A DNA stretch of 23,387 bases, from positions 1-23,387 of the forward strand of contig CAIYYW010000054.1 in the NCBI GenBank assembly GCA_903930515.1, given 5' to 3'. A program made the position numbers and the translations under genes. This DNA comes from an uncultured delta proteobacterium (GTDB lineage: Bacteria > RBG-13-61-14 > DRUE01). Shown piece after piece: positions 5,476 through 22,506 of the stretch. The notes below the pieces were generated by a model that was not told where the DNA came from, ran no database searches, and saw only the letters and a program-made list of their open reading frames with translations. How positions within the stretch are numbered: the first letter of the stretch is position 1; each line of letters starts with the position of its first letter.

Positions 5476-8400
5476 ATGGTGGATGTATCAAGGAGGAATT
5501 TTTTAGTCGGAAGCGGAAGCTTCCTGGGGTTCCTGGGCCTCAATCTCAAACCTGCCCTCGCGCATGCCGAGAACAAAGCCGCGGCCCTCAAGAAGGGAAG
5601 GATGACCAGCACGATCTGCCCCTATTGCGCGTGCGGTTGTTCCGCGGTGGTGACCTCGGAAGAGCGCAACGGGAAATGGGTGGCGATCAATGTGGAGGGC
5701 GACCCGGACCATCCCATCAATGAGGGCACGCTTTGTTCCAAGGGGTCCTCGCTCTACCAGATGTGCAACGGCGACTCCCGCCTGAGCAAGGTGTTGCATC
5801 GGAAGCCCGGGAGCGACAAGTTTGAAGAAGTGGACTGGAGCACCGCGGCCAAACGGATCGCCCGTCTGATCAAGGATACCCGGGACGCCTCGTTTACGGA
5901 GACCAACAGCCAGGGCCAGGCCGTGAACCGGACCATGGCCATTGCTTCCCTCGGAAGCGCGGCTCTGGACAACGAGGAATGCTGGCTGTATCAGAAGTTC
6001 CTGAGAAGCCTGGGCCTGGTTTATATCGAGCACCAGGCAAGGATCTGTCACTCGGCAACGGTTCCGGCCCTGGCCTCCAGTTACGGACGGGGAGCGATGA
6101 CCAACCACTGGATTGACCTCAAGAACGCCGATGTGGTCCTGATGATGGGGAGCAACCCGGCCGAGAACCATCCGATCTCAATGCATTGGGTGATGAAAGC
6201 CAAAGACCGGGGCGCCAAGCTGATCTGCGTGGACCCGCGTTTTACCAAGTCCGCGTCCATCTCCCAGATCTATGCGCGGCTCCGGGGCGGGACCGACATC
6301 GCCTTCCTGGGCGGGATGATCAAATACATCCTGGACAACGATCTGATCCAGCGCGACTATGTCCTGAACTACACCAACGCCTCCTTCATCGTAAGCGACG
6401 ACTACGGCTTTGACCAGGCCTCCGGCCTGTTCAGCGGATATAACCCGGAAAAGCGCAAATACGACAAATCCAAATGGCAGTATCAAACCACGGCCGGAGA
6501 AATCCCGGAGCCGGTCCGGGATCCGACCCTTCAGAACCCGCGCTGTGTTTATCAGCTGATGAAGAAACATTATTCGCGCTACGATTTTGAGACCGTATCC
6601 AAGGTCACCGGAACGCCGGTCAAGGACCTGGAGCTGGTCTATCAAACTTATGCCGGAACCCATCTGCCGGACAAGGCCGGAACCATTATGTACGCGATGG
6701 GCTGGACCCAGCACACGGTCGGAGTCCAGAACATCCGGGCGATGGCGGCGATCCAGCTTTTACTGGGAAACATCGGCGTGGCTGGCGGCGGGGTCAATGC
6801 CATGCGCGGCGAATCCAATGTCCAGGGCTCAACCGACCACGGCCTGCTCTACCATATCATTACCGGATACCTGAAGACCCCGACCGCGTCCCTGGTCACC
6901 CTGGACGATTACAACAAGGCCGCCACGCCCAAGCCCATCGGCAAGGACAGCGTGAACTGGTGGGGAAACACGCCCAAATATATGGTCAGCTACCTGAAAT
7001 CCATGTATGGCGAAAAGGCCACGCTGGAAAATCAATTCGGGTATGGCTGGATGCCCAAGCTGGATGACGGGGCGGGTTACTCCTGGCTGACCATCTTTGA
7101 CGCGATGTATGAGGGAAAGATCAAGGGACTGTTGGCCTGGGGAATGAACCCGGCCTGCAGCGGCGCCAACTCCAACAAGACCCGGCCGGCCTTGGCCAAG
7201 CTGGACTGGATGGTGAATGTCAATATTTTCCCCAGCGAAACCGGCTGGTTCTGGCAGGACCCGACCCTCGGGATTAAGCCCTCGGAGATCAAGACCGAGG
7301 TGTTCGTGCTCCCGGCCGCGGCCTCAATTGAGAAACAGGGAAGCATCACCAATTCCGGGAGATGGATGCAATGGCGGTATAAAGGCGCGGACGCCCCCGG
7401 CGAGGCGATCCCGGACGCGGACATTATGGGTCTGATCTTCACGGAGCTGAAGTCGCTCTATCAAAAGGAAGGGGGCAAGTTCCCGGAGCCGATCCTGAGC
7501 CTGAAATGGGACGAGTATTTCCATAACAATGAAGTTGACGCGGAAGCCGTCGCCAAGGACATCAACGGATATTTCCTGGAAGATGTGACTATGCCGGACG
7601 GCAAGAGCTTTAAGAAGGGCGAACTGGTTCCGAGCTTTGGGATGCTCCAGGCGGACGGAAAAACCTCCAGCGGCTGCTGGGTTTACGCCGGGTCCTTCAC
7701 CCAGGACGGCAAGAACAAGTCCAAGAAGCGGATCCGCGAAAAGAGCGGGATCGGCATGAACCCGGATTGGGCCTGGGCCTGGCCGGTTAACCGCAGGATC
7801 ATATATAACCGGGCGTCGGTGGACCTGAACGGAGTCCCCTATAACAAGAACCTTCCGGTGGTTCAATGGGACGCGGCAGAGTCTAAGTGGAAAGGCGATG
7901 TTGTGGACGGCCCGGCCACCATCCCGCCGATGGGGATGACGGGAGGGAAACTGCCGTTTATTATGAACGAGGAGGGCGTGGGCCGGCTCTGGACGATGAA
8001 GCTGGAAGACGGTCCGTTCCCGGAACATTATGAGCCGTTTGAATCGCCGGTGGATACAAATCCGTTCAACGGACAGCCCTTCAACCCGGCGAGCAAAATC
8101 TTCAAAGGACCTATGGACAAGCGGGCCGCTTCAGGCGGCTCCGAGTTCCCGATCGTCTGTTCCACCTACCGGGTAACCGAGCATTGGCAAACCGGGGTGA
8201 TGACCCGGCATTGCCCGTGGCTGTTGGAGCTTCAGCCCCAGATGTTCGTGGAGATGAGCGAACAACTCGCGGCGGAGAAAGGGATCAAGGCCGGAGAGGT
8301 AGTGGAAGTGGCCAGCGCCCGGGGATCGGTGCTGGCGGTTGCGATCCCGACCAAGCGCTATCAGCCGCTCACGGTAATGGGCAAGACCGTGCATACCGTG

Positions 8401-8586
8401 GGCCTCCCGTGGTGCTTCGGATGGAAAACCGTGAACGCAGGGGACAGCGCGAACCTGCTCACTCCCAACATCGGAGACGCCAACACCATGATCCCGGAAA
8501 CCAAGACTTTTTTAGTAAATATCAAGAAGGCGCCGGGCAAGACCTTAAAAACGGTCAAGATTGCGGGCGCCAGGAGGAGGGCGTAA
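5476..8586 (+). CDS. fdnG: Formate dehydrogenase (FdnG type) catalytic alpha subunit, Cys form, Tat-exported
   Basis: A 1036-residue periplasmic enzyme oxidising formate to CO2 at a bis-MGD molybdenum or tungsten centre. The Tat motif SRRNFLVG is at residues 5-12, before a hydrophobic stretch ending in ALAHA. Cys48-x2-Cys51-x3-Cys55 and Cys87 bind the proximal 4Fe-4S cluster. The active-site block reads HQARICHSATVPALASSYGR. Cys191 (TGT, 6046-6048) stands where E. coli FdnG has selenocysteine, with the adjacent catalytic His at 192. The C-terminal MGD-binding domain (about 900-1020) is complete, and length matches FdnG (about 1000 residues). AAAGGAG (5463-5469) sits six bases before the ATG. 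The ferredoxin gene begins directly after the stop codon, so this opens a four-gene operon. The choice of Mo or W, and the direction in vivo, cannot be read from sequence. Confidence 0.95.
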   Translation: MVDVSRRNFLVGSGSFLGFLGLNLKPALAHAENKAAALKKGRMTSTICPYCACGCSAVVTSEERNGKWVAINVEGDPDHPINEGTLCSKGSSLYQMCNGDSRLSKVLHRKPGSDKFEEVDWSTAAKRIARLIKDTRDASFTETNSQGQAVNRTMAIASLGSAALDNEECWLYQKFLRSLGLVYIEHQARICHSATVPALASSYGRGAMTNHWIDLKNADVVLMMGSNPAENHPISMHWVMKAKDRGAKLICVDPRFTKSASISQIYARLRGGTDIAFLGGMIKYILDNDLIQRDYVLNYTNASFIVSDDYGFDQASGLFSGYNPEKRKYDKSKWQYQTTAGEIPEPVRDPTLQNPRCVYQLMKKHYSRYDFETVSKVTGTPVKDLELVYQTYAGTHLPDKAGTIMYAMGWTQHTVGVQNIRAMAAIQLLLGNIGVAGGGVNAMRGESNVQGSTDHGLLYHIITGYLKTPTASLVTLDDYNKAATPKPIGKDSVNWWGNTPKYMVSYLKSMYGEKATLENQFGYGWMPKLDDGAGYSWLTIFDAMYEGKIKGLLAWGMNPACSGANSNKTRPALAKLDWMVNVNIFPSETGWFWQDPTLGIKPSEIKTEVFVLPAAASIEKQGSITNSGRWMQWRYKGADAPGEAIPDADIMGLIFTELKSLYQKEGGKFPEPILSLKWDEYFHNNEVDAEAVAKDINGYFLEDVTMPDGKSFKKGELVPSFGMLQADGKTSSGCWVYAGSFTQDGKNKSKKRIREKSGIGMNPDWAWAWPVNRRIIYNRASVDLNGVPYNKNLPVVQWDAAESKWKGDVVDGPATIPPMGMTGGKLPFIMNEEGVGRLWTMKLEDGPFPEHYEPFESPVDTNPFNGQPFNPASKIFKGPMDKRAASGGSEFPIVCSTYRVTEHWQTGVMTRHCPWLLELQPQMFVEMSEQLAAEKGIKAGEVVEVASARGSVLAVAIPTKRYQPLTVMGKTVHTVGLPWCFGWKTVNAGDSANLLTPNIGDANTMIPETKTFLVNIKKAPGKTLKTVKIAGARRRA

Positions 8587-9465
8587 ATGAGTTTAGCGGT
8601 TATGATTGATACCACCAAGTGTATCGGATGCCGTTCCTGCCAGGTCGCGTGCAAGCAGTGGAACGGACTGCCGGCCGAAGTAACGGAACTGGAGGGACGG
8701 TCCACCGGTTTCCAGAACCCGCCGGCGCTGTCCGCCAAGACCCTGACCCTGGTCTCCTTCCGGGAGATTGCGGACCAAGCCGCGCCGTCCGGTCTGAAAA
8801 TGGTGTTCGCCAAGCGCCAGTGCATGCACTGCCAGGATCCGGCCTGCGCGTCCGCCTGCCCGGTTACCGCCTTGCACAAGACCAAGGAAGGGCCGGTGAC
8901 TTATGACAGCGCGAAATGTATGGGTTGCCGGTATTGTATCTGGGCCTGCCCGTTCGGGGTTCCGACCGCGGACTGGGATTCGCTTGCGCCCAAGATCCAT
9001 AAATGCACTATGTGCTTCAACCGGGTGGAGCAAGCCGAGACGCCGAAAACCCTGAACGATCAGCCGCTTTTGCCGGAAGCCCAGGAGCGCTTCCTTGCGG
9101 GCGCGGCCAAGCCCGCGTGCGTGAAAGCCTGCACCACCGGCGCCCTCCGGTTCGGAGAGCGCGATCAGTTGCTGGCCGAGGCCAGGCAGAGGATTGGTTC
9201 TGCGCCCGGGAAATATGTCCCGCACATTTACGGCGAGAAGGAAGTGGGGGGAACCTCGGTCTTGTATCTATCGTCGGTTCCGTTTGAAAAGCTCGGATTC
9301 AGAACCGACCTGGGAGAGCGCAGTTATCCGGGTTATTCCAAGATCCCGCTTGAGATCGTCTCTCCCGCGGTGATGGGAATGGGAGGTCTGCTGGCCGCGG
9401 TTTATTTGATCAAGCGGCGCAAGGCGTTGGTCGCCGGCTCCGCGGAACCGGGAAAAAAGGAGTGA
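8587..9465 (+). CDS. Formate dehydrogenase iron-sulfur beta subunit (FdnH/HybA-like, four 4Fe-4S)
   Basis: A 292-residue ferredoxin-type subunit that wires the catalytic subunit to the membrane anchor. Sixteen Cys form four cluster sets: Cys12/15/18/22, Cys79/82/87/91, Cys111/114/117/121, and Cys140/143/178/182. A single membrane helix (about 255-275, ending in KRRK) anchors the C-terminus, as in FdnH and HybA. It has no signal of its own and is expected to ride out with the Tat-tagged alpha subunit. The ATG directly follows the fdnG stop, which implies translational coupling. It overlaps no neighbour and the next gene starts directly after its TGA. Confidence 0.93.
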   Translation: MSLAVMIDTTKCIGCRSCQVACKQWNGLPAEVTELEGRSTGFQNPPALSAKTLTLVSFREIADQAAPSGLKMVFAKRQCMHCQDPACASACPVTALHKTKEGPVTYDSAKCMGCRYCIWACPFGVPTADWDSLAPKIHKCTMCFNRVEQAETPKTLNDQPLLPEAQERFLAGAAKPACVKACTTGALRFGERDQLLAEARQRIGSAPGKYVPHIYGEKEVGGTSVLYLSSVPFEKLGFRTDLGERSYPGYSKIPLEIVSPAVMGMGGLLAAVYLIKRRKALVAGSAEPGKKE

Positions 9466-10752
9466 ATGATGCATTATGAGGCGGTAAAAACGGATTTCTT
9501 TACCAGGAAGGCGGCCGTCCTGATGGCGCTGATGGCTGCGGGGGGATTCGCGTTTCTGGCCCGGTTCGGACTCGGTCTGGGAGAGACCACCAACCTGAGC
9601 AACAATTACCCCTGGGGTCTCTGGATCGTGTTCGACCTGGTCTGGATCGCGCTCGCCGGAGGAGCCTTTGTAACTGCGGGCATCGTCTATATCTTTATGG
9701 GAGAGGATTTCCATCGCCTGGCCCGGCCCGCGGTCTGGATGGGGTTCCTGAGTTACTCCTTCGTGGTGGTCACCCTGCTCGCGGACCTCGGTCTCCCCTG
9801 GCACTTCTGGCAGCTCGGGATTCAAAGGCCGGAACATTCCGCGATGTATGAGGTGTCCTGGTGCGTCAGTCTTTATGTCACGATCCTGGGACTGGAATTC
9901 GCCCCCACCGTTTTTGAGCGCTTCGGCTGGGACAAGCTCAAAGACCTCTGGAGGGCCTGGTCCCCGGTCTATACCGTGATCGCCCTCGCCCTGTTCACCT
10001 ACCTGATGTCTCATAAAATCTGGATGGCCGCCCTGTCCCTGGTCCTGTTCGCAATCATCACTTTCCTCACCAGAGACTCCGGGAAGCACAGCGGCGTCCC
10101 GGTGATCCTGATCATCGCCGCGGTTACCTTTTCCACCATGCATCAATCTTCCCTCGGCTCCCTCTTCCTGCTGATGCCCGACAAGCTCAGCCATCTCTGG
10201 TGGTCCCCACTGATGTCGCTCCTGTTCTTCCTCTCCGCGGTGGCCTCCGGGATCGCCCTGGTGATGCTGATGGATATGCTGGTCTCATATTTCTTTGACC
10301 GCCCCTTTAACTGGGCCATGCTCGGAAAAATGGGCAAAATCCTCTGGGCAGCCCTCGCAATCTATTATGGGATCAAAATCGTGGACCTCGGCGCGCGCGG
10401 AGAGCTGGGCCTGGCCCTGGTCGGATCTAACGGGGTGTTGTTCCTGATTGAGGTCATCGGCGGGGGACTGATCCCGCTCATTCTGCTCTCCACCCAAAAG
10501 CTCAGAAGCAATAAAAACCTGCTCGTGCCCGGCACCGTCCTCGCCCTCTTGGGGGTGATCTTCAACCGGCTCAATACCGTCCTGCTCGGGATGACCCTGC
10601 CCGGAACCCAGCCCGGCGGACTGGTCGGGACTTACCATCCCAGTATGGTGGAATGGACCCTTGCCATCTCCCTGATCTCGGCCGCGTTTTTCTTCTTCGC
10701 GCTCGGGGTAAAATTCCTGCCCATTCTGCCCAAGGTGGAAGAGACTAACTGA
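9466..10752 (+). CDS. HybB/NrfD-type quinone-reactive membrane anchor (gamma subunit)
   Basis: A 428-residue protein with about ten membrane helices, for example near 17-37, 52-77, 90-108, 130-148, 168-183, 185-202, 212-226, 247-275, 322-342 and 396-418. The HQSSLG loop (226-231) and the YHPSxVEW segment near the end fit HybB/NrfD/PsrC-family anchors, which have no haem and exchange electrons with quinone. It therefore replaces the FdnI cytochrome b of classical formate dehydrogenase N. AGGAG (9458-9462) is only three bases from the ATG at 9466. The next ATG at 9469 has better spacing and may be the true start. It directly follows the beta-subunit stop. Confidence 0.9.
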   Translation: MMHYEAVKTDFFTRKAAVLMALMAAGGFAFLARFGLGLGETTNLSNNYPWGLWIVFDLVWIALAGGAFVTAGIVYIFMGEDFHRLARPAVWMGFLSYSFVVVTLLADLGLPWHFWQLGIQRPEHSAMYEVSWCVSLYVTILGLEFAPTVFERFGWDKLKDLWRAWSPVYTVIALALFTYLMSHKIWMAALSLVLFAIITFLTRDSGKHSGVPVILIIAAVTFSTMHQSSLGSLFLLMPDKLSHLWWSPLMSLLFFLSAVASGIALVMLMDMLVSYFFDRPFNWAMLGKMGKILWAALAIYYGIKIVDLGARGELGLALVGSNGVLFLIEVIGGGLIPLILLSTQKLRSNKNLLVPGTVLALLGVIFNRLNTVLLGMTLPGTQPGGLVGTYHPSMVEWTLAISLISAAFFFFALGVKFLPILPKVEETN

Positions 10753-10758
10753 GAAGCG

Positions 10759-11592
10759 ATGGAGGCATTTGCCGGTCTGCGCGAGCGGATCCTGATCGGG
10801 TTGGAATCGCTCCGGCAAGTTGAGTATGTGCCCGCGGAATACCTTTTTTTCCGGACCAACCTGTTCCGCGCTCAGCTCACGGCTTATGACCATATCCCGC
10901 TGGACTCGTCCGGTTTGCGGTTGCCGGTCCGGCCCGAGTCCTTGAAACTGGATCCCGCGGTCCTGGCTTGTTTTTTTGCTCAAGCCGCTGAATCGCTCAA
11001 ACCGGATCAGCCTATGCAAGAGCAATGGAAAAAAATCCTGGACCATCCCGAAAGGCAGACCAACCTGGTAAAAGCCGCCCTGTTCGGCCCGGACCTTTTG
11101 GCCCTGGAAAAAATCGCAGCGGATACCGGGGCCGATCCGGAAATTATACTCTTTTTCGGACGCGCCGCGGCCGCTCCTTTTCTGAGCAGGATGCTGTGGG
11201 ACGCGCCTGAATCTTTGGCCGAGCCGTCGGCTGAAGCCCGGTCCTGCCCGGATTGCGGGTCCGCGCCCGGGCTGTCCCTGCTCCGGGGCGAGGTTGGACA
11301 GAGGTTTCTGGTTTGTTCCCTGTGCGCCCGGGAGTGGGAATTCCCGCGTTTGAAATGCCCCTTTTGCGCGGGCCAGGAAAAACTGGACCTGATCCGGGAG
11401 GAAAACTCTTCTCCCAGATGGATTGAGACCTGCGGCGCCTGCCGCCAATACCTGATTACCACTGATACCAGAACCTCGGCCGCAAACCACCCATTGATCC
11501 CGCTCCTGGAAACCGTCTCCAACCTCTACCTGGACCTGATCGCGCAAAAACAAGGTTGTCAGCCGGGCGCATCCTATCTATCCCTCAGATGA
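10759..11592 (+). CDS. fdhE: Formate dehydrogenase accessory protein FdhE
   Basis: A 277-residue cytoplasmic maturation factor. Its C-terminal half carries four Cys pairs in zinc-ribbon/rubredoxin style: Cys163-x2-Cys166, Cys186-x2-Cys189, Cys200-x2-Cys203 and Cys225-x2-Cys228. The N-terminal half is helical, as in FdhE. E. coli FdhE binds the respiratory formate dehydrogenase catalytic subunit before Tat export, and its place as last gene here fits the Tat signal on the alpha subunit. Its ATG is six bases after the gamma-subunit stop. No strong Shine-Dalgarno is seen beyond GAGAAGCG, so it probably depends on coupling. fdhD and cofactor synthesis genes are not in the window. Confidence 0.9.
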   Translation: MEAFAGLRERILIGLESLRQVEYVPAEYLFFRTNLFRAQLTAYDHIPLDSSGLRLPVRPESLKLDPAVLACFFAQAAESLKPDQPMQEQWKKILDHPERQTNLVKAALFGPDLLALEKIAADTGADPEIILFFGRAAAAPFLSRMLWDAPESLAEPSAEARSCPDCGSAPGLSLLRGEVGQRFLVCSLCAREWEFPRLKCPFCAGQEKLDLIREENSSPRWIETCGACRQYLITTDTRTSAANHPLIPLLETVSNLYLDLIAQKQGCQPGASYLSLR

Positions 11593-11638: not shown

Positions 11639-11665
11639 CCGATAGTTTTATTTTGAACCCCGCGC

Positions 11666-11671
11666 TATAAT
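11666..11671 (+). promoter_or_regulatory. -10 box upstream of the GH-D-like gene
   Basis: A perfect TATAAT lies 30 bases before the ATG at 11701. No good -35 box is found at 16-18 bases, so an activator may be needed. Confidence 0.35.
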
Positions 11672-11700
11672 TGGGCCAGCTTTTTTTCAGGAGGCGGAAA

Positions 11701-13902
11701 ATGAAAAGGGTGGTATTTTTTTTCAGTCTGATCGCGGCGGCGCTGTTTTCGTTCGCGGCTTTTGCCGGGATCAAACAGGATTTCAGCTACCGGTTCCTCT
11801 GGCCGGCGGATTTGTCCCAGCCGGGAAAAAATCTGCGGGAGCTGAAGGTCAAGGCCATTGGCGCGGAGACCGCTTACACCCCGCTGGGAAAGGCGGAGGT
11901 GGAAATTTTTGAACTGAGCGATCCGAAAGGGGAGCTGGTGGCCCGGGCAAAAGCGATCACTATTTCCGGCCGCGACGATCTGCTGATATTTATGACCGAG
12001 ACCTTGAAGGACATTTCCGCCCCGACCGGCCGATTTGAGGATCCGCATTTTGCCTTGCCCGCGATCAAGCCGGACCGGCGCTTCAATTATGTATTGGATT
12101 TCAAGGAGGAGGAATTTGTCACGCCCTCGCATCGGCCTCATCCGACCAGCGGCCCGGTGGCGATGTATAACCGGGATTTGCAAGTGTTGATGATGTCTCC
12201 GCTGGATACTTTTATGGCCGCCCTGCAGGCGCCGGTGAACGGAGAATGGAGGTGCGGGTTCGGGGGATTGGTTGAGAAAATACCGGCCGGGACCGTGAGC
12301 CAGACCATTCTCGTTTCCGGGAATGGGATCAATGCCTCGTTTATGAAATGGGGATCGCTGATCCAGCAATGGCATCGCCATCAGACCGCGGACGCTTATG
12401 CGGATGCGGCGATGAGCCGCCTCGGATACTGGACTGACAACGGATCCTACTATTACTACCGCACCGAGCCGGGTATCAACTATCAGGACACTTTGCTCGC
12501 GATCAAATCTTATGCGGACCGGCAGGGCATCCCCTACGGATATTTCCAGATTGACTCCTGGTGGTATCCCAAGGCCGAGATAGATTTGAAATCTTCCCAT
12601 AACCGCGGCGGGGTCCTGCTCTGGGAGCCGATCCCGGAGATGTTCCCGCAGGGGCTGGCGGAATTCCGGAAGCAACTCGGGCTCCCGCTGGCGGCACATA
12701 ACCGATATGTGGCCGACACCAGTCCCTACTGCCAAAAATATAATTGCGTCTTCAGCATCGGCGACAAGCGGAGGGGCGCCTTTCCGACCGATCCGAAATT
12801 CTGGGACGAAATTATGGACAACGCGGTCAAATCCGGGGTGACGGTTTACGAGCAGGACTGGCTTTACACGCATATAGATATGATCCCCTGGATGAGGACC
12901 GGGCTGCATAACGCGGAGGGTTGGTATGACAATATGGCTTCCGCGGCCGGAAAACGCGGTCTGACCATGCAATTGTGTATGGCGTCTCCGGGATTTTTGA
13001 TGCAGGCGCTCAAGCATCCGGTGGAAACCCACATCCGGACTTCCCACGACTACAAGGGCGGAATCGCCAAGGCCTTTTTCTGGGTGCCGTTCCACAAGGC
13101 CGGCTTGTTCGCCTGGTCGGTCGGGCTGTGGCCGTTCAAGGTTAATTTCCAATCCACCGCGGGCCAGAAGCCTGCTTACAACATCATTCCCGAGGCAAAC
13201 CCGATGGAAGAAGCCCTGGTCGCGTCCCTTTCGGGAGGACCGGTGGGGCCTTCGGACAAAATCGGGGCCTCAGACCGGGAACTGATCCTGAAGACCTGCC
13301 GCAAGGACGGGCTGCTGTTAAAGCCGGACCGGCCGGCAACCCCGATTGACATAATGTTTGTTTATAACCAGCGCCTGCTGGGCGGGAAAAAGCCCTGGGT
13401 GGTCACCACCGAGAGCAATCATGAGATCGGCAAAACCGTATATCTGGCCGCGTTCAATCTCTGGCCGCAAAGTATGTATCAGCCTTATGTCAGCTTGGCC
13501 GAGGCCGGCATTTCCGGCAAACACCTGATCTATAACTATCTCACCGGCGAATATAAAATCCTGGATGACCGGATAGATTTCGGGGTGATGCGCCCGGAAA
13601 AGGCATATTATTATGTCCTCTGCCCGGTCCTGGCCAATGGAATGTCAATGATCGGCGAGACCGGAAAATTCATCACCCTGAGCCAAAAGCGGTTCCCCTC
13701 CATCAAGCTGGAAAATGAAACCCTGATCATGCAGGTTGAGGGCGTGCCGGGCGAGCAAATTGGAATCTCTATTTACGCGCCTAAACCTTTGCAAGATATT
13801 TCCAGCAAAGATTTAATTACAAAACCAAAACTGGAACCGGGCATAGTCAATTTCAAATTGACCATACCCGATTCAGGGAAAACAACCGTTACGGTCAGGT
13901 AG
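11701..13902 (+). CDS. Secreted TIM-barrel glycosidase-like protein, distant GH36/raffinose-synthase relative
   Basis: The ATG at 11701 follows AGGAGG (11689-11694) and gives a 733-residue protein with a Sec signal peptide (cleavage near FAAFAG). A beta-rich N-terminal part (about 25-235) is followed by a barrel-like core. This has GYWTDNGSYYYYR (242-254), YFQIDSWWY (281-289), VTVYEQDWLY (380-389) and RTSHDY (446-451). A later segment reads SGGPVGPSDKIG (511-522), resembling the SGGPxYVSDxxG motif of raffinose synthase/Sip1-type GH36 proteins, and is followed by a KxDGxLLKPDxPATPID-like continuation. Asp285 and Asp386 are my candidates for catalytic residues, by position at strand ends. The family name and substrate are unknown; an alpha-glycosidase in the GH-D clan is the best guess. 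A secreted GH97 follows 23 bases later, so both probably act on the same alpha-linked glycan. Confidence 0.65.
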   Translation: MKRVVFFFSLIAAALFSFAAFAGIKQDFSYRFLWPADLSQPGKNLRELKVKAIGAETAYTPLGKAEVEIFELSDPKGELVARAKAITISGRDDLLIFMTETLKDISAPTGRFEDPHFALPAIKPDRRFNYVLDFKEEEFVTPSHRPHPTSGPVAMYNRDLQVLMMSPLDTFMAALQAPVNGEWRCGFGGLVEKIPAGTVSQTILVSGNGINASFMKWGSLIQQWHRHQTADAYADAAMSRLGYWTDNGSYYYYRTEPGINYQDTLLAIKSYADRQGIPYGYFQIDSWWYPKAEIDLKSSHNRGGVLLWEPIPEMFPQGLAEFRKQLGLPLAAHNRYVADTSPYCQKYNCVFSIGDKRRGAFPTDPKFWDEIMDNAVKSGVTVYEQDWLYTHIDMIPWMRTGLHNAEGWYDNMASAAGKRGLTMQLCMASPGFLMQALKHPVETHIRTSHDYKGGIAKAFFWVPFHKAGLFAWSVGLWPFKVNFQSTAGQKPAYNIIPEANPMEEALVASLSGGPVGPSDKIGASDRELILKTCRKDGLLLKPDRPATPIDIMFVYNQRLLGGKKPWVVTTESNHEIGKTVYLAAFNLWPQSMYQPYVSLAEAGISGKHLIYNYLTGEYKILDDRIDFGVMRPEKAYYYVLCPVLANGMSMIGETGKFITLSQKRFPSIKLENETLIMQVEGVPGEQIGISIYAPKPLQDISSKDLITKPKLEPGIVNFKLTIPDSGKTTVTVR

Positions 13903-13925: not shown

Positions 13926-15845
13926 ATGTTTGGGAAAAGATTTCAGACATTGAAAAAATCGGCTTGGGCAACGGGAGTTTTTCTGACGGCCTTTGCCACA
14001 GCCGCGGGCGCTCCGGCTGGGTCCGCGACCAAGGAGATGGCCGTGATCGCGAGTCCGGATGGCCGGGGGCGGGTGGAGATTTATTTCAATGACCCGGGCC
14101 GATTGAGCTACGAACTGTTTCGCGACGACCGATTGGTGGTTGAGAAATCTCCGCTCGGGATCATCGTGGACGGTGTTGACCTGGGATCGGGCGTGGAGCC
14201 GGCCGGGTCGTTCGCGGTCAAGACCGTCAATGAAACCAGCGCGACGCGGGGGAAGCATCCGGTGGCGGCAGATCATTGCAACACCGCGGCAATTCCGCTC
14301 CGTCACCAGGGGAGCGGGAAAGCCTGGCAATTGGAATTGCGGGTCTATGATGACGGCCTGGCCTTCCGTTACATCGTTCCGGGACAGGGATCGCTCCGGA
14401 TCAGCGGCGAGTCCACGGGGTTTCAACTCCCGTCGGACGCCGCGCTGTTCTTCCAGCAAAACACCAAAAACGGAGAAGGCATTTACCGGAAACAAAATCT
14501 CGGGCGGATCAATTCAATTATGGGCATCCCGGTCACCGCGGCGCTTCCGGAAAATGCCGGGTATCTGGCGATCACCGAGGCCGCGGTTTATAACTACAGC
14601 GGGATGACCCTGCAAAGCGCGAACGACCGGGTGCTCCGGGCGATCTTTGAGGACGATCAAAGTTGGACGGTGGAAGCGGATAGTGATTCTCCGCTCCGGT
14701 CTCCCTGGCGGGGGATTATGGTTGCGAAAGATTTGAACGGCTTGGTCAATTGCGACATTGCGCATAATCTCAGCCCGGCTCCCTCCCCTGAGCTTTTCCC
14801 CGGAGACCTCTCCTGGATCCAACCGGGACGGGCGCTCTGGTCGTGGTGGAGCGAGGGGACCGGGGACTTGGCGCGGCAGAAGAGATACGCGGACGCGGCG
14901 CAAAAGCTCGGGTTTGAATACATCCTGGTGGACGAGGGGTGGGAACGATGGGCGCCCACGGAAAACCAATACTGGGCAATGATCAAGGAGCTGGTTGATT
15001 ACGCCGGCGACCGCGGGGTCAAGGTCTGGGTCTGGAAACATTACGGCAAGCTGATGGACGAAAAATATCGCGCCGACTTTTTCAGGAAAGTGAAAGCGGC
15101 CGGAGTAGTCGGGGTGAAGATAGATTTTATGGACAGCGAGAGCCAGGGGCTGATCCGGTTTTACCAGGACGCGCTCGAGGACGCGGCGGAATATAAATTG
15201 ATGGTCAATTTCCACGGCGCCAACAAGCCCGCGGGCGAGTCCCGGACCTATCCCAACGAGATGACCCGCGAGGGCCTGCGCGGCCTGGAATACAACCGCG
15301 GGATCATCGCGCCCAATCCGGCCAGCTACAACGCCACTCTCCCCTTCACCCGCTTCCTGGCCGGGCACGGCGATTACACCCCGGTCACTTTCAATTACTG
15401 GAAGATGGGCAAGACCAGCTCCGCGCATCAGCTCGCCACCGCGATCGTGTTCACCTCGCCGATCACCCATTACGCGGACAAACCGGAAAATTTCCTGGCC
15501 AATCCCAAAACCGCGCCGGCGCTTCCGGTGATCAAAGCTATCCCCACGGTCTGGGATGAAACCATCGTTTTACCCGGAAGCGAGATCGGAGAGCTGGCCG
15601 CGTTTGCCCGGCGATCCGGAAAAACCTGGTTCATCGGCGTTTTAAACGGCGGAGACCGGAAAACAATCAGGCTCCGGCTGGACTTTTTGCCCGAAGGAAA
15701 ATACCAGGCGATTCTCCTTTCCGATCATCCTTATGACAAAACCGGACTCTCCCGCGTTGATCAGACGGTATCCGCCGGGGATGAGCTGGAAATAAATATG
15801 CGCCGCGGCGGAGGATTCGTGGCGATGATCAAATCCTCCGGATAG
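13926..15845 (+). CDS. Secreted GH97 alpha-glycosidase, retaining-type active site
   Basis: A 639-residue protein with a signal peptide (cleavage near residue 28-34) and the three-part GH97 layout: N-terminal beta-sandwich (about 40-300), barrel (about 300-570), and C-terminal beta domain (about 575-637). Diagnostic stretches are ALWSWWSEGTGD (303-314), YILVDEGWERW (332-342), GVKIDFMDS (396-404), and TYPNEMTREGLRGLEYNR (441-458). Within GH97 an Asp at the GVKxDF position is the nucleophile of retaining alpha-galactosidase-type members, with the Glu of REGxRG as acid/base. That points to Asp400 and Glu449 here, and away from the inverting SusB type. The GGGAGAGGCGG stretch just before the ATG serves as ribosome site. 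It is probably co-transcribed with the upstream barrel protein. Alpha-galactosidase is favoured but unproven. Confidence 0.9.
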   Translation: MFGKRFQTLKKSAWATGVFLTAFATAAGAPAGSATKEMAVIASPDGRGRVEIYFNDPGRLSYELFRDDRLVVEKSPLGIIVDGVDLGSGVEPAGSFAVKTVNETSATRGKHPVAADHCNTAAIPLRHQGSGKAWQLELRVYDDGLAFRYIVPGQGSLRISGESTGFQLPSDAALFFQQNTKNGEGIYRKQNLGRINSIMGIPVTAALPENAGYLAITEAAVYNYSGMTLQSANDRVLRAIFEDDQSWTVEADSDSPLRSPWRGIMVAKDLNGLVNCDIAHNLSPAPSPELFPGDLSWIQPGRALWSWWSEGTGDLARQKRYADAAQKLGFEYILVDEGWERWAPTENQYWAMIKELVDYAGDRGVKVWVWKHYGKLMDEKYRADFFRKVKAAGVVGVKIDFMDSESQGLIRFYQDALEDAAEYKLMVNFHGANKPAGESRTYPNEMTREGLRGLEYNRGIIAPNPASYNATLPFTRFLAGHGDYTPVTFNYWKMGKTSSAHQLATAIVFTSPITHYADKPENFLANPKTAPALPVIKAIPTVWDETIVLPGSEIGELAAFARRSGKTWFIGVLNGGDRKTIRLRLDFLPEGKYQAILLSDHPYDKTGLSRVDQTVSAGDELEINMRRGGGFVAMIKSSG

Positions 15846-20382: not shown

Positions 20383-22506
20383 ATGAAAGGGAAAAGTTTC
20401 GGCAAAGTCCTGGGAGCGGTCGCGTTGATGGTTCTTTTCACCGGCACGGTTTTCAGCGCGCTCTCGGGCTTGGGCGGGCAGGAGATAGAGCAGAAGGTTA
20501 AGGACACGCTCGGCAAGATGACTTTTGACGAGAAGATCGCTCAGATGCACGGGGTGGTTCCGCTGGGCCGGGCGGTTGGCCTGATCGGGGAATCTCTCAA
20601 CCCGGCTCTGGCGGACACCTGGAACACGGCGGAAAATAAAAGATTGGGGATCCCGGCGCTCCGCTGCATAGACGGCCCTCGGGGAGTGGGCAAGGGCTGG
20701 GCCACGGCGTTTCCGGTTTCAATGTCACGGGGCGCGAGCTGGGACCCGGTCCTGGAGAGACGGATCGGGGAGGCGATGGGATACGAGGCGCGGGCGCAGA
20801 ACGCGAATGTGTTGCTCTCTCCCTGCATCAATCTTTTGCGGCATCCGAGTTGGGGCAGGGCGCAGGAGACCTACGGGGAGGACCCGCTGCACCTGGGGGT
20901 GATGGGATCGGCTCATATCATCGGGGCGCAGAAATATGTGATGGCGTGCGCGAAGCATTTTGCCGCGAACAATATGGAGGAATCGCGCTTTTTCGTGAAC
21001 GCGGTGATGGACGAGCGAACCCTTCGGGAGGTTTACCTGCCCCATTTCAAGATGTGCGTGGACGCGGGAGTGGCGTCGGTGATGAGCGCGTATAACGATT
21101 TAAACGGATTCCTGGCCGGACAAAACAAGCATCTGATCACGGACATCCTCAAGGACGACTGGGGGTTCAAGGGGTTCGTGGTCTCGGACTGGGAGAACGC
21201 GGTGGATGACGCGGTGTTGGCCGGGAACGCGGGACTGGACCTGGAGATGCCGATGGGAGCGCATTTGGGGGAACCCCTGAAGAAGGCGATTGAAGAAGGA
21301 AAGGTTCCAGCCAAGAATATTGACGATTCGGTGGCCCGTTTATTGAGAATGAAATATGCCTTCCTCACCCCGGATTTCACCAAGGGGTTTGACAAATCAA
21401 AGGTGGGCGGCAAGGAGCACGCCCAAATCGCTCTGGAAGCCGCGCAAAAGGGCACAGTGCTGTTGAAGAACGATAAGAACGCGCTGCCTTTGGACCGGGG
21501 CAAGATCAAGACCTTGGTCGTGATCGGCAAGCTCGCGAACACCAAAAACATCGGCGATCACGGCAGCTCGGATGTGGCCACATCTTATGCGGTGACTCCC
21601 CTGCAGGGGATCTTAAGCAAGGCCGGAACCGGGATCAAGGTGGTTTACGAACTGGGAGCGGACCTGGAAAAGGCGAAGCAGGCCGCCCAGGGAGCGGACG
21701 CGGTGATCATTGTCGCGGGGATGACCTGGAAGGACGAGGGAGAAGGCGGGCCGGGATACGGAGACCGGAAGGACTTGAACCTGCACAAGGATGACGAGGC
21801 CTTGATCAAGGCGGTCGCGGGGGTAACCGACCGGCTGATCGTGGTCCTGGAGGCGGGAGCGGTGATCACGCTGGAATCGTGGAAGAACGACGCGGAAGCG
21901 ATTGTGATGGCCTGGTACCCGGGGATGGAAGGCGGAAACGGATTGGCGGACCTCTTGTTCGGCGATGTGAACTTCTCGGGCAAGCTCCCGATTGTCTGGG
22001 GAAAATCTCTGGACCAGTATCCTCCGTTTGATAACAAGGCCAGGGAAGTCAAGATTGATTACTATCATGGCTACCGACTGTTTGACAAGAAGGGACTGGA
22101 GCCGTCTTTCCCGTTCGGATACGGTCTGAGCTATACCAAATACAAGTATTCCAACCTGAAGCTGGACCAAAAACAAATCGGGAAGAGCGGCAAGGTTACG
22201 GCCAGCGTGGATCTCGCCAACACCGGCAAGATGGCCGGAGAGGAAATCGTCCAGCTTTATGTCGGGTCCAACGGCAGCAAGGTGGACCGGCCGGTGAAAG
22301 ACCTGAAAGCCTTCACCCGGGTTGCGCTTAAGCCGGGCGAGACCAAAACCGTGACCCTGGAAGTGAACGCCCAGGACCTGGCTTATTGGAATATGGACAA
22401 GAACGGATGGGAGATTGAGGAAATTGAATACACCGTTCTGGTCGGGCCGTCTTCACGCGCGAATGACCTGGGCTTGAAGGGCTCCTTCAAAATTTCCGGC
22501 AACTGA
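20383..22506 (+). CDS. Secreted GH3 family beta-glucosidase
   Basis: A 707-residue exported enzyme with a signal peptide (hydrophobic 9-25). The GH3 N-terminal barrel (about 40-310) has DGPRG (98-102), a substrate-site KHFAANN (191-197), and GFVVSDWENAV (264-274) with the nucleophile Asp269. A linker leads to the alpha/beta sandwich (about 350-560) and a fibronectin type III-like domain (about 600-695, with ANTGKMAGEEIVQLYV). This three-domain order is that of BglX-type beta-glucosidases, which remove terminal beta-linked glucose or related sugars. The acid/base residue of GH3 is poorly conserved and I do not assign it. The gene is a single unit with its own promoter and a strong terminator. 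Exact specificity (glucosidase or xylosidase) is open. Confidence 0.93.
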   Translation: MKGKSFGKVLGAVALMVLFTGTVFSALSGLGGQEIEQKVKDTLGKMTFDEKIAQMHGVVPLGRAVGLIGESLNPALADTWNTAENKRLGIPALRCIDGPRGVGKGWATAFPVSMSRGASWDPVLERRIGEAMGYEARAQNANVLLSPCINLLRHPSWGRAQETYGEDPLHLGVMGSAHIIGAQKYVMACAKHFAANNMEESRFFVNAVMDERTLREVYLPHFKMCVDAGVASVMSAYNDLNGFLAGQNKHLITDILKDDWGFKGFVVSDWENAVDDAVLAGNAGLDLEMPMGAHLGEPLKKAIEEGKVPAKNIDDSVARLLRMKYAFLTPDFTKGFDKSKVGGKEHAQIALEAAQKGTVLLKNDKNALPLDRGKIKTLVVIGKLANTKNIGDHGSSDVATSYAVTPLQGILSKAGTGIKVVYELGADLEKAKQAAQGADAVIIVAGMTWKDEGEGGPGYGDRKDLNLHKDDEALIKAVAGVTDRLIVVLEAGAVITLESWKNDAEAIVMAWYPGMEGGNGLADLLFGDVNFSGKLPIVWGKSLDQYPPFDNKAREVKIDYYHGYRLFDKKGLEPSFPFGYGLSYTKYKYSNLKLDQKQIGKSGKVTASVDLANTGKMAGEEIVQLYVGSNGSKVDRPVKDLKAFTRVALKPGETKTVTLEVNAQDLAYWNMDKNGWEIEEIEYTVLVGPSSRANDLGLKGSFKISGN

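Follow-up and report, generated by a model that had tools for sequence, protein, structure and literature searches.

The window analysed here, a stretch of DNA of 23,387 nucleotides, carries at 11701-13902 the gene of a 733-residue protein that stands beside a GH97 gene, and it raises the question of what kind of enzyme this protein is and on which sugar it would act. The initial annotation had described the protein as a secreted GH-D-like barrel. This description was borne out: a predicted Sec-type signal peptide (MKRVVFFFSLIAAALFSFAAFA) forms the N-terminus, and the (beta/alpha)8 barrel of the alpha-galactosidase superfamily, by which clan GH-D is recognised, is present in the structural models described below. 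The motifs quoted in that annotation, namely GYWTDNGSYYYYR, YFQIDSWWY, VYEQDWLY (residues 382-389) and RTSHDY, were all found in the protein, and residues 285 and 386 were confirmed to be Asp.

The ATG at 11701, with an AGGAGG six bases 5' of it, was taken as the start codon. The TTG at 11671 given in the list of open reading frames is a mechanical choice. Comparison with the copy in a genome of the same genus gave dN of about 0.19, dS of about 1.10 and dN/dS of about 0.18, which shows the gene to be kept by purifying selection. An open reading frame of 495 residues runs antisense to the gene on the minus strand (11665-13152); most probably it is an artefact that arises from the high G+C content of the codons. 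The features of the locus are as follows.

11689-11694, plus strand: AGGAGG ribosome-binding site, read from the sequence
11701-13902, plus strand: gene of the 733-residue protein with its stop codon, GH-D-like and outside Pfam and NCBIfam (open reading frame, relatives, dN/dS)
11701-11766, plus strand: predicted Sec signal peptide, residues 1-22 (hydrophobic N-terminus; helix 2-17 in the AlphaFold (AF2) model)
11767-12387, plus strand: N-terminal beta-sandwich domain and linker helix, residues about 23-229 (AF2 model; 7exf aligned from its residue 5)
12388-13329, plus strand: catalytic (beta/alpha)8 barrel, residues about 230-543 (AF2 strands 242-244, 281-284, 330-334, 380-385, 422-425, 442-446 and 477-479)
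12424-12462, plus strand: strand-1 motif GYWTDNGSYYYYR, residues 242-254, with D246 at the position of the relatives' platform Trp (alignment)
12541-12567, plus strand: strand-2 motif YFQIDSWWY, residues 281-289, with D285-S286 at the relatives' Asp-Asp (alignment)
12697-12705, plus strand: H333 and R335 of AHNR, where strand 3 ends, in 30/30 members (alignment)
12850-12852, plus strand: E384, in place of the KxD lysine, in 30/30 members (alignment)
12856-12858, plus strand: D386, predicted nucleophile at the end of strand 4 (register G379+7, as D383 of AtAkaGal3; PMC9912918)
13036-13053, plus strand: strand-6 motif RTSHDY, residues 446-451, with R446 and the predicted acid/base D450 (aligned with RASGDF; PMC9912918)
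13231-13266, plus strand: Sip1-like SGGP...SDKIG block, residues 511-522 (alignment)
13330-13899, plus strand: C-terminal beta domain, residues about 544-733 (AF2 model; the 7exf match reaches residue 733)
13926-15845, plus strand: neighbouring GH97 of the retaining type, VKIDF with D400 and HG in NFHGANKP (Pfam/NCBIfam match, signature motifs)

Searches for a known family

At E<=10 the 733-residue protein had no match among Pfam families, NCBIfam families or PDB sequences, and the HMM search against the Pfam GH families, which the initial annotation had proposed as a check, was thus negative at this threshold. The GH97 models (PF10566, PF14508 and PF14509) were among those not matched at E<=10, as was the GH31 barrel model PF01055, which also found none of 24 aligned relatives; the GH27/GH36 melibiase models, including PF02065, matched neither the protein nor these 24 members. 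The relatives, gathered from public genomes, share 26-73% identity with the protein, and the aligned 24 showed no real match to any Pfam or NCBIfam family. A single one of them touched PF05691 (raffinose synthase/Sip1; E 0.0023), the model cut-off of which is 20 bits and to which the 733-residue protein gave 0 matches. The remaining weak matches among the 24, few in number, involved unrelated families and are probably due to chance. A PDB search with a profile of 22 members gave chance matches and a 10-bit match to a GH36 alpha-galactosidase, the viral library yielded, apart from weak barrels, just an alpha-galactosidase from Tetraselmis virus 1, and literature searches found nothing on the family. 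The family is therefore absent from the Pfam and NCBIfam models; it may already carry a CAZy number.

Kinship to raffinose synthases and alkaline alpha-galactosidases

Comparison of profiles did reveal kin. In hhalign, the 24 members matched four PF05691-type proteins with a probability of 99.2% (E 9.1e-20) over 563 columns. A comparison of the family with a single PF05691 protein gave 98.6% (E 5.8e-16). The controls, which were the GH97 neighbour and GH3 and GH2 proteins, gave probabilities of 0.2-2.1%; GH97 was ruled out as the parent family, the value for the neighbouring GH97 being 0.2%. The resemblance to raffinose synthase/Sip1 that the initial annotation had seen in the SGGPxxxSDKIG block is real. 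In the alignment, a PF05691 protein from the same genome has LSGGPVYITDKPG opposite LSGGPVGPSDKIG of the 733-residue protein.

The AlphaFold model, built from 22 members, has three domains and a high overall confidence (pLDDT 89.8, pTM 0.90), with moderate values in the strand-1 loop (pLDDT 74 for residues 241-250 and 69 for 251-260). The best Foldseek matches of the model were 7exh/7exf, Arabidopsis AtAkaGal3 (E 4e-25). In VIA-align, 7exf scored Z 28.5 over 607 residues, spanning residues 22-733, and the next entry scored 22.8. A second model, led by a member of 29% identity, also gave Z 28.5 to AtAkaGal3, followed by 21.8. The order of N-domain, barrel and C-domain is that of AtAkaGal3, so that the three-domain layout is common to both over the full length, together with the blocks LSGGP...DK.G and DG.(V/L).(R/K)PD..P..P. 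In contrast to AtAkaGal3 and the raffinose synthases, to which the family is 12-15% identical, below Pfam detection, most members are exported or lipoproteins.

Other relatives were more remote. The bacterial GH36 alpha-galactosidases and FpGalNase share the clan GH-D barrel and the catalytic positions (Foldseek E 2e-20 for FpGalNase), but with a lower structural score (Z mostly 19-22). The GH27 alpha-galactosidases share the barrel and catalytic geometry (1uas, Z 22.8), but the match is limited to residues 229-643 and there is no profile match. GH97 belongs to the same barrel superfamily (Foldseek E 6e-16 to 5e1q), but the family has neither a GH97 Pfam match nor profile similarity to it.

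The profile match and the fold match agree: on alignment and modelled fold, the family is a distant sister group to the branch of raffinose synthases and alkaline alpha-galactosidases, which is usually filed in GH36. The view that the protein fits no named family holds for Pfam and NCBIfam; it does not hold for its kinship, which can be placed. The PF05691 sequence stands on a very long branch in the tree, which holds one such sequence, and we therefore kept the kinship claim at the level of sisters. The family is an uncharacterised one of the clan GH-D type, neither isolated nor plain GH36.

The window's own genome also has tandem PF05691 raffinose-synthase-like genes (L052, 1-2995, and L073, 1-1260; contigs C119 and C117 of G000), one of which is probably split across two contig ends. 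A PF05691 search of 57 genomes of the Myxococcota sample gave no match, but the control set was also silent, so the lack of a match carries little weight.

Distribution and gene neighbourhoods

The family is rare and patchy, in at least five bacterial lineages. It occurs in 3/3 genomes examined of the home phylum (one being the MAG RBG_13_61_14), each with signs of a second copy, in 17/282 genomes of a second phylum, labelled Myxococcota by the tree tool, in 5/7 of a third, and among 297 genomes of a fourth as four clear cases and one partial. A further member is carried by a plasmid of Methylovirgula, an alphaproteobacterium. A spread of 290 relatives yielded only two genomes outside the home phylum with the family. 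Most members have a signal peptide or lipobox; the 7 of the first 24 members that have neither are a six-member Myxococcota clade and the plasmid copy.

Several copies deserve a remark of their own. The second copy in the window's genome (G000:C273:5665-7872; L053, L002) is 38-42% identical and sits between Mfd-like and RNA-methyltransferase-like genes; its counterpart in the same-genus genome is split over contigs C748 and C252. One member (L044, 2147-4216; G135:C80) is interrupted by a TAA codon in frame, located after the D386 region and before that of D450, which may reflect a pseudogene, an assembly error or recoding. On the Methylovirgula plasmid pHY1, the full-length member (L070, 11560-13641) appears in the record only as a pair of hypothetical proteins, of which one is placed on the other strand, and the true frame spans both.

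The GH97 gene beside the family gene in the window does encode an enzyme of the retaining type, as the initial annotation had stated, with D400 in the KIDF signature and the HG signature; retaining GH97 enzymes are marked by (K/M)(I/V)DF and HG (PMC2670981). The two genes are 23 bp apart. The pairing is kept in a second genome of the genus with a gap of 828 bp, and no GH97 partner was found beside any other member whose flanks were read. The two-enzyme step on one glycan that had been suggested from the pairing appears doubtful, the pairing being confined to these two genomes of one genus.

The neighbours of other members vary by lineage. In one genome of the fourth phylum, a GH13 cyclomaltodextrinase/SusA-like gene and a GH31 alpha-glucosidase gene lie upstream, the latter ending 5 bp before the family gene, and a glucosamine-6-phosphate-deaminase-like gene is divergent at the same locus. 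This locus (L086, 3-17181) holds TonB-like receptors, the GH13 and GH31 genes, the family member, a LacI regulator, the NagB-like gene and a GH88 gene, and was read as an alpha-glucan-type utilisation locus. A CsxA-type exo-beta-D-glucosaminidase (1e-185) is encoded directly downstream of the member in another genome, and a glucokinase downstream of the member on the Methylovirgula plasmid. GHMP sugar kinases adjoin three signal-less Myxococcota members (L046, 9897-10895; L047, 10023-11033; L051, 6381-7367); in L051 a sugar-1-phosphate nucleotidyltransferase comes after the kinase, a sign that the released sugar may be salvaged. GH2 proteins, sulfatases with GH28-like proteins, and rhamnosidase-like proteins are also among the neighbours of the family. 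These contexts fit a glycosidase and hint at glucose or glucosamine without agreeing on one glycan. Deduction of the substrate from the neighbours was accordingly given up, as there was no convergence.

Elsewhere in the window, a formate dehydrogenase cluster read from the sequence lies directly upstream (5476-11592), with a catalytic subunit having Cys, not Sec, in CHSATVP, an FeS subunit, a membrane subunit and an FdhE-like protein. A secreted GH3 is encoded at 20383-22506, for which the best NCBIfam model, exo-alpha-(1->6)-L-arabinopyranosidase, scored far below its cut-off, and an RCC1-like repeat protein with repeated CWG motifs was read from the sequence at 966-2108.

Catalytic pair, sugar pocket and proposed function

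AtAkaGal3 uses D383 of its KVD motif as nucleophile and D447 of RASDD as acid/base, and the alanine mutants of both are inactive (PMC9912918). SGVTVYEQD of the 733-residue protein aligns without gaps with AGVDFVKVD of the PF05691 profile, and RTSHD aligns with RASGD. In the model, D386 comes after strand 4 (380-385) and D450 after strand 6 (442-446). All 30 members, down to 26% identity, have D386, D450 and R446 as well as the RxxxD acid/base motif; the two catalytic positions and the Arg of RxxxD are thus common to the family and to AtAkaGal3 and the raffinose synthases. On the alignment and the model, the catalytic pair is best assigned as D386, the predicted nucleophile, and D450, the predicted acid/base. 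By analogy with these relatives, the anomeric configuration would be retained. Asp386 would attack a terminal alpha-linked sugar at its anomeric carbon, so that a covalent beta-glycosyl-enzyme forms; Asp450 would first protonate the leaving group and then activate water or an acceptor sugar.

The sugar pocket appears to have been rebuilt around this pair. Relatives in the clan bind galactose through the Trp of strand 1, the Asp pair of strand 2 and the Lys of KxD. The strand-2 Asp pair and the Lys of AtAkaGal3 contact galactose (PMC9912918). FpGalNase, although it acts on galactosamine, retains W317, D346, D347, W387, K461 and D463 (PMC11762096). The new family has lost the residues that the bacterial GH36 enzymes and FpGalNase retain (W, DD, W and KxD). 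The strand-1 Trp position is Asp246 in 29/30 members, the second Asp of strand 2 is Ser286 in 30/30, and the Lys of KxD, which is kept in all three home-phylum PF05691-type proteins covering strand 4, is Glu384 in 30/30. H333 and R335 at the end of strand 3 are new invariant residues (30/30). The joint loss of the galactose contacts, with the catalytic pair kept, suggests a different sugar at subsite -1. This sugar is probably other than galactose, Asp246, Ser286 and Glu384 standing where the galactose-binding Trp, second Asp and Lys would be; a gluco-configured one (glucose or glucosamine) may serve as a first guess, from the gene neighbours in other genomes.

We therefore propose, with a probability of about 0.72, that the protein is exported and acts as a retaining alpha-glycosidase or transglycosidase of the clan GH-D type, from an undescribed family sister to the raffinose-synthase/alkaline alpha-galactosidase branch, with a sugar other than galactose at subsite -1. 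More tentatively, the family could be a new one of clan GH-D in which the acidic pair Glu384/Asp246, standing in for the galactose-binding Lys and Trp, recognises a sugar of gluco configuration instead of galactose, one that may carry an amino group.

It is worth considering whether the enzyme is a transglycosidase and not a hydrolase, taking its sugar from an oligosaccharide donor as raffinose synthases do. The sister branch includes synthases and the dual-function AtAkaGal3 (PMC9912918), and the invariant Trp/Tyr-rich motifs could form acceptor sites. The acceptor-site WW box FRSKxWW, however, was found in 0/30 members. Its absence discriminates weakly, since it was also found in 0/4 bacterial PF05691-type proteins (one of them without the N-domain). 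Exported members, moreover, are located with degradative enzymes, and a strict transglycosidase seems to us unlikely.

Another explanation is that the protein, though strongly diverged, is still an ordinary alpha-galactosidase or a galactosyltransferase like the raffinose synthases, holding galactose at -1 by other residues. All the nearest relatives by fold and profile are galactose enzymes, and the GH97 neighbour is closest to a retaining alpha-galactosidase. To keep galactose, however, the family would have to do so with three contact positions replaced in all or 29 of its 30 members, among them the Asp and Lys that touch galactose in AtAkaGal3 (PMC9912918), whereas even FpGalNase, an amino-sugar enzyme, keeps the Trp, the Asp pair and the Lys (PMC11762096). 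This explanation is, in our judgement, quite improbable.

The heavy change of the -1 site might also be expected of a non-catalytic, sugar-binding descendant of the barrel, but the invariance of D386, D450 and R446 over 30 sequences and the low dN/dS make this hardly credible. Equally hard to sustain is a catalytic pair of Asp285 and Asp386 in an enzyme acting with the adjoining retaining GH97 on one glycan: both residues end strands of one barrel, but D285 falls opposite a substrate-binding residue, the first of the two strand-2 Asp, and a single member has Asn instead (Asp in 29/30), D450 aligns with the proven acid/base, and the GH97 pairing is confined to one genus. The Asp285/Asp386 pair of the initial annotation was thus half right, D386 corresponding to D383 of AtAkaGal3 and D450, not D285, being its more likely partner.

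With a fixed catalytic pair and the -1 contacts replaced as a set, the family offers a natural test of how specificity changes within clan GH-D. If the protein is active, a new CAZy family or GH36 subfamily would start with it, and if the acidic-pair reading is true, the enzyme would be an alpha-glucosaminidase, or a specialised alpha-glucosidase or transglucosidase. Annotation built on Pfam and NCBIfam will miss the family, since neither models it, and its members span a little-studied phylum, the Myxococcota, an alphaproteobacterium and at least two further phyla.
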